Assembly: GCA_027061805.1 (NCBI GenBank) | Contig: JAMOWA010000064.1 | Coordinates: 1 to 64,000 of the forward strand | Source: Thermoanaerobaculia bacterium | GTDB taxonomy: Bacteria; Acidobacteriota; Thermoanaerobaculia; Thermoanaerobaculales; Sulfomarinibacteraceae | DNA length: 64,000 nt | Direction of reading: 5' to 3' | Shown: piece after piece, positions 4,434 through 27,398 of the stretch | How positions within the stretch are numbered: the first letter of the stretch is position 1 | How the letters are laid out: each line of letters starts with the position of its first letter | The notes under the pieces: generated by a model | The model's input: only the letters and a program-made list of their open reading frames with translations | The model's database searches: none | What the model was told of the DNA's origin: nothing | Position numbers and translations under genes: made by a program

Positions 4434-4657
4434 CCCTGACGGTGTCCGTGACCGTGACCATGTCCCTGACCGTGTCCGTGACCCTGTCCCCGCCCCCCCG
4501 CTTCTCGTGAAACGTGAAAGGTGAAACGTGAAACGAATGAGGCACTTCCAAACCGCTCGCTGGTCGCACCACGGTGCGACTCCAGCTCTCGCTCTCGTAC
4601 AGAGAAAGCCGGTGTCTCGAGGTACACCCCCTCTCCCCTGCTCCCCTGCTCCCCTGG
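4434..4657 (-). repeat. Modular intergenic repeat, site 1 (hexamer array + 7-bp array + conserved core + palindrome + CTCCCCTG array)
   Basis: Contains cgaatgaggcacttcc (4534-4549), the reverse complement of the 16-mer at 8838-8853 and 14025-14040; palindrome GTCGCACC-AC-GGTGCGAC at 4563-4580. Confidence 0.85.
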
Positions 4658-20284: not shown

Positions 20285-20584
20285 ATGGCGACACCACACT
20301 GGAACGACACCACCGCGATCATCACGGGCGCCTCCTCGGGGATCGGCGCCGCCCTGGCCCTCGAGCTCGCCGGCACGGGGGCCCGGCTCGTCCTCACCGG
20401 CCGGCGGGCCGACGCCCTGGAGGACGTGGCCGGGGCCTGCCGGGAGCTCGGGGCCCAGGCCGCCACCGTGGCCGGGGACCTCACCGGACCGGTGCACAGG
20501 GTGGCCCTCGTCCAGACGGCGCGGGAACGGTTCGGGGGCGTGGTCCTCTACGACCTGTTCATCACCAGGAACCTCCCGGAGTGA
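20285..20584 (+). pseudogene. Truncated SDR oxidoreductase (N-terminal Rossmann portion only, 99 aa)
   Basis: IITGASSGIGAALALELAGTGARLVLTGRR present; no NNAG or YxxxK catalytic region; ends 3 nt from the convergent glycyl radical gene. Confidence 0.7.
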
Positions 20585-20587
20585 GCC

Positions 20588-23500
20588 TCACAGCGCGCAG
20601 TGGCGCGTCCTGTCGATGATCTCCTGCTGCATGGCCGGGGACAGGTCGTTGAAGTAGGCCGAGTAGCCGGAGACCCGGACCAGGAGCCACGGGTGGGCCG
20701 AGGGGTCGTCCCGGGCCTCCTCCAGGACCCCGGGGTCCAGCACGTTCATCTGGACCTGCATCCCCCCCTGCAGGAAGTAGCCCCTGATCAGGCCCTCCAG
20801 GGCCCGGAGCCCCTGCCTCCCCCGCAGGGTGACCGCGTCGAGCTTCACGTTGACGTTGATCCCATTCCTGCCGTTTTCGACCTGGTTCGTGGCGGCCGCG
20901 GAGGCCAGCGCCGCCGTGGGGCCCCGGCGGTCCGCGCCGTTGGCGGGGGCGAGGCCGCTGGCCAGGGGTCTGCCCGCCAGCCGCCCCGACGGCAGGGCTC
21001 CCGTGGTCTCGCCGAAGGCCGCATGGGCGGTCACGGCGTAGAAGCCCGCCAGGTAGGGCCCGCCGCGGATGTTGGTGTGGCGCCCCAGGGAATCCGCGAA
21101 CGCGGCGCAGACCCTCTCGGCGAGGGCGTCCACCCGGGGCTCCCCGTTGCCGTACTTGGGCGCCTTGAGCAGGTACCCGCGCAGGGTGCCGAAGCCCTCG
21201 AAGTCCGACTTCAGGGCGCGGACCAGCTCCCCGAGGGTGGCCAGCCGCCGCCGGAACACCACCTCGTCGATGGCCATCAGGCTGTCGGTCACGTCGGGCA
21301 CGCCCACGCCCTGGACCCCGCTGGCGTTGTACCGGGCCCCGCCGGCCGTGGAGTCCACACCGGACTCGAGGCATCCCCCCAGCAACATGGAGGTCAGCGG
21401 CGTGGGGTGGAACCGGGCGTTGGCCAGCTCGATGGCCTTCAGGTCCGCGATCAGGAGGTCCACCAGATGGTCCAGCTGGACGCGCCAGGCGCCGAAGAAA
21501 CCCTCCAGGTCCACCACCCCCGCGGCCCGTCCCACCCCCGCACCCCCCCGTTTCAGGCCCAGCGCCCACTCCAGGGGAAGGGCCAGGTTCAGGAGCGCCG
21601 CGTCGGTGGAACCGAAGGTCTCGCCGCAGGCCACCGGCTCGATGCACCCCACCGGGGAGTAGTCCCGGGCGTCCTCCAGGGTGATGCCCCGGGAGACCAG
21701 CATGGGCACCACGGCCTCGTCGTTCATCAGGGAGGGTGCCCCCGACCCGCGGCGCAGCATGGAGGCGACCCGCTCCACGTACTCCGGCGGGCTCCCCCGG
21801 TGCAGCCTGGCGTGGTAGTTGGGCTGGCGCATCCTGAGCTCGTCCATGGCGTCGAGGAAGGCCCACGTGAGCTCGTTGGTGACGTCGCGGCCCTCCCGGT
21901 CCGTCCCGCCCACCACCACTGCCTGCCCGTTGAACATGCCCCCGTGGAAGCGGGTGAGCCGCCGGGAGAAGACGGGCACGATCTCGCTCATCTTCACGGT
22001 GAAGCAGCCCACCAGCTCCCGGAGGCCACGCTCGTCGAGCCGTCCGGCCTCCCTGTCCGCCTCCCAGTAGGGCGCGAGGACCTGGTCCAGCCGTCCCGGA
22101 GAGACCGCGTTGTCCAGGCTCTCCAGGTTGAGTGCGATCTGGGCGAAGAGGAGCGACTGGAAGGCCTCCCGGAGCGTCCGCGCGGGGTGCCGCGGCACCC
22201 GGTCGCAGACCTCGGCGATCTCCAGGAGCACCCGCCGGCGCTCCGGGCCGGTCTCCCGCTCCGCGAGCTCGCGCGCGAGCGTCGCGTACCGTGCCGCCAT
22301 CTCCTCGAGGCCCCGGCACACGATGCCGACGGCCTCCCAGAAGTCCCGGCGTTCGGGATCCGTGGTGACCTCCGCCCGGGAACGGGCCTCCGCAGCGATC
22401 CCCTCCGTGCCCTCGGCAAGGAGCCGTGCATAGTCGGGCACCAGGTGGGAGATGCCACCGCTCTCGTTGATCAGGTAGCGCTTCGCCGTGACCTGGTCCA
22501 CCACGAAGGCCAGTGCCCTGGGCACCGTGAAGGCCCGGAAGGCCAGGAAGCGCGTCAACCAGAAGGGCATCACGGAGAGGGCCAGCACCCGGCGCTCGCG
22601 CCGGCCGATCCGCAGCGGGTTGACCTCGCGGGAACCGAAGGCGAACAGGTCCTCCAGCATGGCCACCCCGTGGAGCTCGGGAAAGATGGAACCGCCAACG
22701 CGCTTGCTGGAGAAGGCCCCCACCAGGAGCTCGTCATCCCAGATCCGGGCACTGCGGTTGGCGAGGACGAAGCGGAGGGCCTCGGCCTTCCGGAGGATCA
22801 CCGGGCCCCGCCGGTTCTCCCGCTTCCGGAAGAAGCGGGTCACCAGCTCGGCCCGCTCGGAGCACACCTCGGGGTGCGCGGCCTGCACCTCCGCCCGGAG
22901 CCTCCAGACGCGATGCGGGAAGACCTCGGGGGAATCGCTGGGGGCCCCGTCGGGCTCGTGGCCCTCCACCGTCACGCCGATTCCCTGTCCCTCGAACCGT
23001 TCCCGGACCCTCTCCAGCGCCTCCCCGGCGCTCTCCGGTGGGATGCCCAGACGGGGCCGGGGGCTCGCCAGCCTCTCGATCTTGTCTTCCCCCGCCCGGT
23101 GGTAGGGCAGCAGCCGGATGGAGTCCACACCCAGCTCCCGGAGGAACCCGGCGATACCGTCCACGCAGCCCGCACCGTCGTTGTGACCGGGGATCACCGG
23201 CATCCGGAACACCACCCGGGCCCCGGACCGCACGAGCCGGCGGGCGTTGGAGGCGACCGTCGCCAGGGGGAATCCGGTGAGCTCGCGGTGCAGGCCGTCA
23301 CCCCATGCCTTGAGGTCGAAGTAGAAGAGATCGACCAGTGGCAGGACCCTCTCGAAGGTGGACCAGGGGACGCCCCCGGCGGTCTCCACCACCGTGTGGA
23401 GGCCCCGCTCCCGGCAGATCCCGAGGAGCTCCTCGGCGCCGCCCGCCTGGAGGAGCGGCTCGCCGCCCGAGAGCGTGATCCCGCCGCCGCTGGCCTCGAA

Positions 23501-23875
23501 CCAGGGCCCGTCGCGCAGGACCTCCTCGACGATCTCGGCGGGTGACCTCGGCTCCCCCACCCTCCGCAAGGCCTCGTGGGGGCACGCCTCGGCGCAGAGG
23601 CCGCAGGCGTCGCAGAGCTCGCGGTCGATCCGGGTCTCGCCCGCCGTGATGGCGCCCAGGGGGCAGGCCTCCGCGCACAGGAGGCACCCCACGCACCGCT
23701 CGGCGTAGAAGGCCATCTCGGGCCGCGCCCCGATGCCCTCGGGGTTCTGGCACCAGGGGCAGTCGAAGGAACATCCCTTGAGGAACACCACGGTCCGGAT
23801 GCCCGGCCCGTCATGGACACAGAACCGCTGGACGTCGAAGACGACGGGCGGGTCGATGGGAGCGGTGGCGGCCAT
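20588..23875 (-). CDS. Fused glycyl-radical-enzyme activase / glycyl radical enzyme (about 1095 aa)
   Basis: N-term radical SAM GCSFDCPWC (CX3CX2C), two ferredoxin-type clusters (CVGCLLCAEACP, CDACGLCAEACP), GGGITLSGGEPLL; C-term GRE with VGCIEP catalytic Cys and glycyl radical motif RVSGYSAYF; one uninterrupted ORF. Confidence 0.93.
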   Translation of the reverse strand: MAATAPIDPPVVFDVQRFCVHDGPGIRTVVFLKGCSFDCPWCQNPEGIGARPEMAFYAERCVGCLLCAEACPLGAITAGETRIDRELCDACGLCAEACPHEALRRVGEPRSPAEIVEEVLRDGPWFEASGGGITLSGGEPLLQAGGAEELLGICRERGLHTVVETAGGVPWSTFERVLPLVDLFYFDLKAWGDGLHRELTGFPLATVASNARRLVRSGARVVFRMPVIPGHNDGAGCVDGIAGFLRELGVDSIRLLPYHRAGEDKIERLASPRPRLGIPPESAGEALERVRERFEGQGIGVTVEGHEPDGAPSDSPEVFPHRVWRLRAEVQAAHPEVCSERAELVTRFFRKRENRRGPVILRKAEALRFVLANRSARIWDDELLVGAFSSKRVGGSIFPELHGVAMLEDLFAFGSREVNPLRIGRRERRVLALSVMPFWLTRFLAFRAFTVPRALAFVVDQVTAKRYLINESGGISHLVPDYARLLAEGTEGIAAEARSRAEVTTDPERRDFWEAVGIVCRGLEEMAARYATLARELAERETGPERRRVLLEIAEVCDRVPRHPARTLREAFQSLLFAQIALNLESLDNAVSPGRLDQVLAPYWEADREAGRLDERGLRELVGCFTVKMSEIVPVFSRRLTRFHGGMFNGQAVVVGGTDREGRDVTNELTWAFLDAMDELRMRQPNYHARLHRGSPPEYVERVASMLRRGSGAPSLMNDEAVVPMLVSRGITLEDARDYSPVGCIEPVACGETFGSTDAALLNLALPLEWALGLKRGGAGVGRAAGVVDLEGFFGAWRVQLDHLVDLLIADLKAIELANARFHPTPLTSMLLGGCLESGVDSTAGGARYNASGVQGVGVPDVTDSLMAIDEVVFRRRLATLGELVRALKSDFEGFGTLRGYLLKAPKYGNGEPRVDALAERVCAAFADSLGRHTNIRGGPYLAGFYAVTAHAAFGETTGALPSGRLAGRPLASGLAPANGADRRGPTAALASAAATNQVENGRNGINVNVKLDAVTLRGRQGLRALEGLIRGYFLQGGMQVQMNVLDPGVLEEARDDPSAHPWLLVRVSGYSAYFNDLSPAMQQEIIDRTRHCAL

Positions 23876-23932
23876 GGAACCTCCGTTCCCCAGTCTACTC
23901 CTGCGCCCTCCCGGTTGTGGTACAAGACTGCC

Positions 23933-27197: not shown

Positions 27198-27281
27198 GCC
27201 CCGCCCCCGGGAACCCGACCACGGAGTGCGGGGTCAGGGTCAGGGACGGGGGACACGATCACGGGCAGGGACAGGGTCACA

Positions 27282-27398
27282 GTCAGGGTCAGGGTCACGA
27301 ACACGGTCAGGGTCAGGGTCACGAACACGGTCAGGGTCAGGGTCACGAACACGGTCAGGGTCAGGGTCACGAACACGGTCAGGGTCAGGGTCACGGAC
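27282..27398 (+). repeat. 24-bp perfect tandem repeat, 4 copies plus a partial
   Basis: GTCAGGGTCAGGGTCACGAACACG at 27282, 27306, 27330, 27354; partial copy from 27378. Confidence 0.95.

Follow-up and report, generated by a model that had tools for sequence, protein, structure and literature searches.

We found a single uninterrupted gene on the minus strand of a Thermoanaerobaculia bacterium contig (JAMOWA010000064.1, of which we analysed one 64,000-nucleotide stretch, here called the window) that encodes both a radical-SAM activase and the glycyl radical enzyme (GRE) on which such an activase acts (Table 1). Pfam identified Radical_SAM (PF04055, E 1e-17), two Fer4 stretches, PFL-like (PF02901, residues 322-955, E 2e-159) and Gly_radical (PF01228, residues 972-1076, E 2e-23) along the one chain; an N-terminal activase is followed by a linker of about 17 residues and then by a complete GRE. 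The frame, coordinates and motifs given in the initial annotation (GCSFDCPWC, CX2CX2CX3C twice, GGGITLSGGEP, VGCIEP and RVSGYSAYF) were all as it had them, and its description of a complete activase and a complete GRE in one chain is borne out by full Pfam domains and by the presence of all catalytic residues. The AlphaFold2 model of the protein as a monomer has a pLDDT of 88 and a pTM of 0.88, with each half folded. Since this DNA is GC-rich and the frame remains open well beyond the ATG, up to 25057 (1489 codons), an open frame is by itself weak evidence for a fusion; we accept the fusion because homology spans both halves and because an equivalent fusion is present in two other genomes, L081 and L082, described below. 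The genome to which the window belongs (G000) comprises 3.1 Mb and is 97% complete.

Table 1. Features of the fused activase-GRE gene (positions in the window)
Feature	Position	Strand	Basis or remark
Activase-GRE fusion ORF	20588-23875	-	Single frame, 1095 aa; ATG at 23875, stop 20588-20590
GGAGG ribosome-binding site	23880-23884	-	4 nt before ATG of fusion gene; read from sequence
Radical-SAM GRE-activase half, residues 1-304	22964-23875	-	TIGR02494 and PF04055
CX3CX2C radical-SAM cluster motif, C35/C39/C42	23750-23773	-	GCSFDCPWC; invariant in the three closest fusions
Two ferredoxin-type 4Fe-4S motifs, C61-C71 and C88-C98	23582-23695	-	Fer4, two stretches
GGGITLSGGEP (SAM-binding GGE motif)	23456-23488	-	Sequence motif; alignment of fusions
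In-frame GTG codons V301, V303	22967-22975	-	Only candidate internal GRE starts near junction
Linker, residues 305-321	22913-22963	-	Between activase and GRE halves; predicted disordered
Glycyl radical enzyme half, residues 322-1095	20588-22912	-	PF02901 and PF01228; Foldseek
H477 (glycerol dehydratase H164)	22445-22447	-	Alignment
N589-A590, replacing glycerol dehydratase H281-S282	22106-22111	-	Alignment
VGCIEP, C744 (thiyl) and E746	21635-21652	-	Motif; alignment of fusions and glycerol dehydratase
D758 (glycerol dehydratase D447)	21602-21604	-	Alignment
RVSGYSAYF glycyl-radical loop, G1070	20651-20677	-	Motif, Pfam, alignment of fusions

The activase half scores 294.6 bits against TIGR02494, the GRE activase family (cut-off 174.35; residues 12-293), and misses the cut-off for BssD (206.8 against 496 bits). 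Its tail matches the G-L-x-V-T-I-G-G with which unfused activases usually end, after which reading continues. In the linker, residues 306-314 have a pLDDT below 50 in the AlphaFold2 model, which predicts disorder.

The GRE half scores above the cut-offs of both PF02901 and PF01228 and has the catalytic C744 and the G1070 loop of a glycyl radical enzyme, but lies below every NCBIfam GRE equivalog cut-off. Assignment to pyruvate formate-lyase (PFL) fails (TIGR01255, 113.7 against 994 bits), and the active site has a single Cys; the suggestion in the initial annotation that the C-x-E context resembles dehydratases or lyases rather than PFL was right, as GCIEP lacks the adjacent Cys-Cys. The half also stops short of TIGR01774, the PFL2/glycerol dehydratase subfamily (637 bits against a cut-off of 678.2), and it reaches at most 459 bits with the models for CutC, HypD, sulfopropanediol dehydratase, and the indoleacetate and hydroxyphenylacetate decarboxylases, for which the NCBIfam cut-offs are 1000-1150. 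The Pfam hits of the fusion protein include no match to the NrdD family; the GRE half is PFL-like (PF02901).

Among solved structures, the best sequence match of the GRE half is PFL2 of Archaeoglobus fulgidus (2f3o, E 2e-149), and Foldseek gave TM scores (target) of 0.93-0.94 to 1r8w and 2f3o, or 0.91-0.94 with 9rco included. We aligned the active site with that of glycerol dehydratase, in which the roles of C433, E435, D447, H164, H281 and S282 are established. Four of the six residues are kept (C744, E746, D758 and H477 for C433, E435, D447 and H164), and the glycerol/propanediol dehydratase set is incomplete, as H281 is replaced by N589 and S282 by A590. Glycerol dehydratase (1r8w) and the propanediol dehydratases (5i2a, 9rco) thus share the fold (TM, target, 0.86-0.93) and those four residues with the window protein, but differ in having H281/S282 at the altered pair and a separate activase. 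The A. fulgidus enzyme has the same C, E, D and H and, like the window protein, lacks H281/S282, but it is unfused, sits on a long separate branch of the tree, and carries Q-A in place of the window's N-A.

Sequencing or assembly could have dropped a stop or introduced an indel and so merged two adjacent genes, an explanation suggested by the nearest same-family relatives, G010 and G004 (51-55% identity), in which activase and GRE are separate genes in different frames that overlap or nearly overlap. In G010, the ATG of the GRE falls within the activase gene, and in unfused relatives the two genes often overlap or sit a few bases apart. However, scanning 85,462 species genomes yielded two independently assembled MAGs with an equivalent single-frame fusion, which form a clade with that of the window: L081, a Deltaproteobacteria MAG from groundwater (64% identity over the full length), which a taxonomy service placed in Myxococcota, probably its true phylum, and L082, a marine Proteobacteria MAG (63% over the full length). 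Moreover, no start codon (ATG, GTG or TTG) occurs inside the window linker, and neither of the two alternative frames has a stop near the natural end of the activase, which also argues against an error. Because L081 and L082 carry the equivalent fusion, we regard a frameshift or misassembly, judged from these sequence comparisons, as excluded for practical purposes and as having scarcely any chance of being the cause. It is likewise very improbable that the gene is a fused but inactive relic, for which we found no supporting point. C35/C39/C42, GGE, C744, E746 and G1070 are invariant in the alignment of the window, L081 and L082, although these fusions are only 63-64% identical, and the gene has a good ribosome-binding site. 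The loss of a catalytic residue in alignment, which the initial annotation had named as evidence against its own reading, is seen in none of the three.

We also note that the first search, which covered activase-GRE pairs in the window's phylum, gave no further fusions. Matches L034-L039 in that phylum looked full-length and were ruled out as fusions, as a stop lies between the in-frame halves; activase and GRE there share a frame with only the stop and a few codons between them, one substitution from fusion.

A profile built from the three fusions with ferredoxin motifs (Fer4-type: window, L081 and L082) found the first members of a second group of fusions, and a profile of those found more. 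This second group has 12 members (L140, L172, L173, L174, L184-L190 and L193), 10 of them complete and two (L189 and L190) ending at contig edges; the activase keeps CX3CX2C and is without the ferredoxin insert, an absence confirmed by Pfam for L173 and L186. Carriers numbered 10 of 314 sampled genomes in the phylum of L081, 1 of 198 in that of L082, and 0 of 247 in the window's phylum. The second group comes mostly from the phylum of L081, although its phylum names are ones that we infer. With three Fer4-type and 12 second-group proteins, at least 14 fusions were found besides that of the window, all from the genome scan and profile searches, and the fusion is not a singleton. Among phages and plasmids, the annotated matches listed are either two separate genes or too sparsely annotated to judge. 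In Moraxella osloensis and Acinetobacter towneri, which belong to genera regarded as aerobic, plasmids (L179 and L180) bear a related pair of GRE and activase genes (41% identity), unfused and with the GRE first.

The junction has features shared by the fusions. From G298 to R322, the three Fer4-type proteins have 24-25 residues of divergent sequence. F[STP]xRV is found at the junction in all three of these and in six of the seven second-group linkers compared, the exception being L140 with L-S-T-R-V; the junction F is absent from all unfused GRE starts compared.

The GRE tree groups the three Fer4-type fusions in one clade (SH-aLRT 100), with five unfused pairs (L084, L087, L091, L106 and L127) as its sister. 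The concatenated and activase trees included 12 fused rows, three Fer4-type and nine from the second group. The concatenated tree placed all 12 together as a single clade (UFBoot 92, SH-aLRT 95), and both fused groups were united in the activase tree with support of 95 and in a quick mixture-model tree with support of 72. The GRE-only tree placed the second group elsewhere on a long branch, but did not reject a single clade (AU p 0.46). A single fusion event is the best reading of these trees and most likely, though unproven. The fusion would have been born from tightly coupled activase and GRE genes when the activase lost its stop and the GRE its start codon, then retained across phyla, with the ferredoxin insert later lost in one branch. 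The GRE subfamily as a whole is spread over Desulfobacterota-type, Myxococcota, Spirochaetota, Bacteroidota and Acidobacteriota MAGs, mostly as two separate genes. The proposal in the initial annotation of a possible new GRE subfamily is supported in part: the GRE half lies below all equivalog cut-offs and belongs to an uncharacterised subfamily, most members of which are unfused.

Across the fusion and subfamily loci compared, there was no conserved gene neighbourhood that would indicate a substrate. The fusion of L082 lies downstream of biotin carboxylase-type, BKACE, enoyl-CoA hydratase and acyl-CoA dehydrogenase genes. A GntR-family gene lies divergently upstream in five subfamily loci as grouped by clustering (GntR/FCD by Pfam in L094), another GntR/FCD gene adjoins the fusion of L193/L200, and second-group genes adjoin various transporters. 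In the window itself, a truncated short-chain dehydrogenase-like ORF (20285-20584, plus strand, about 99 aa, TGASSGIG) is convergent with the fusion gene, the stop of which lies 3 bases from the end of the ORF, and a full short-chain dehydrogenase gene follows on the minus strand. Dispersed tandem CGTTTCA heptamers occur between genes (at 4506, 8854, 14041, 19296, 28279 and other window positions), TTTCACGTTTCACG has 15 matches with up to 2 mismatches where 0.02 are expected in the window, and a 24-bp tandem repeat of 6.8 copies built on GGGTCA hexamers occupies 27231-27395.

We think it probable that this one gene specifies a self-contained GRE that activates itself and carries out a radical elimination, the fusion having most likely arisen once. 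In the host genome, at 97% completeness, there is no other TIGR02494 activase above the cut-off and no other Gly_radical domain; six weaker activase-family matches all fall below the cut-off, and one of them, in L002, reads by eye as an AmmeMemoRadiSam-type radical-SAM protein. As the genome thus offers the fusion neither a second above-cut-off activase nor another Gly_radical partner, self-activation is the presumed mode. The N-terminal radical-SAM domain, receiving electrons via the ferredoxin-like clusters, would cleave SAM and abstract a hydrogen from G1070, which lies in the C-terminal loop, either of its own chain or of its dimer partner. The glycyl radical would in turn give a thiyl radical on C744, which would set off a radical elimination from a small oxygenated substrate with the assistance of E746, H477 and D758. 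The kept four residues and the altered H281/S282 positions would suit an elimination on a substrate other than glycerol; we infer the elimination itself from the four residues (C744, E746, H477 and D758) only.

Other reactions are possible but rather unlikely, such as fumarate addition of the X-succinate-synthase type, decarboxylation, or C-N or C-S cleavage in place of dehydration. In favour of such chemistry, GREs as a class catalyse a wide range of reactions, the function of the tree neighbour 2f3o is unknown, and acyl-CoA enzymes or GntR/FCD regulators are encoded close to several relatives. However, C-x-E and the equivalents of H164 and D447 are retained as in the diol dehydratases, the nearest folds are 1r8w, 9rco and 2f3o, and the scores fall far below the cut-offs for the decarboxylases, CutC, HypD and sulfopropanediol dehydratase. 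We also considered that the gene might yield free GRE alongside the fusion, by starts at the GTG codons of V301 or V303 or by proteolysis of the linker, such that one activase would serve several GRE chains in trans, as it does in ordinary systems. An AGGGA precedes the V301 GTG, L081 likewise has GTG codons (at 301 and 305), the linker is predicted to be disordered, and the frequent overlap of the genes in relatives would make internal starts ancestral. Nevertheless, in L082 the codons after residue 295 (TTG) and before residue 344 include none of ATG, GTG and TTG, so that an internal GTG start is not conserved, and linker length is conserved though its sequence is not; we consider free GRE an improbable product. 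Returning to the self-activating enzyme, we put forward more tentatively, as possible though short of probable, that one old fusion gave rise to a bacterial lineage of self-activating GREs, with the two activities fixed 1:1 in one dimer, one branch without ferredoxin clusters, and a reaction new among characterised GREs.

Compared to the two-gene operons of PFL2/glycerol dehydratase-type GREs and separate TIGR02494 activases, the fusion is alike in the full homology of its halves, the activase-GRE order and C-x-E, but differs in being one polypeptide in which the GRE start is gone and the GRE half is under the TIGR01774 cut-off. A GRE-activase fusion is not without precedent, as eukaryotic NrdD-NrdG fusions (class III ribonucleotide reductase) have been deduced from sequence (PMC3019208; Trepomonas, PMC4967989). 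These likewise have GRE and activase in one frame, but belong to the ribonucleotide reductase family, and the name NrdDG implies that the GRE apparently comes first and the activase last. They were the only GRE-activase fusions found in our search of the open-access literature, and a bacterial activase-GRE fusion is unreported in the literature so searched. Sequence and fold searches of the PDB returned no solved fusion, and no chain among the matches listed covers both halves.

How an activase gains access to the glycine buried in a GRE has yet to be settled structurally. PFL and its activase (PFL-AE) bind weakly (KD about 1.1 uM), and a 2022 study (PMC9326890) had no model of the full complex at its disposal. 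The fusion, as a natural covalent pair joined by a short linker, bears on this question. It offers a system for studying how GREs are switched on, in which activation in cis or in trans can be tested, and the second group, without the ferredoxin clusters, allows the role of those clusters to be probed. The fusion marks an uncharacterised GRE subfamily as well.
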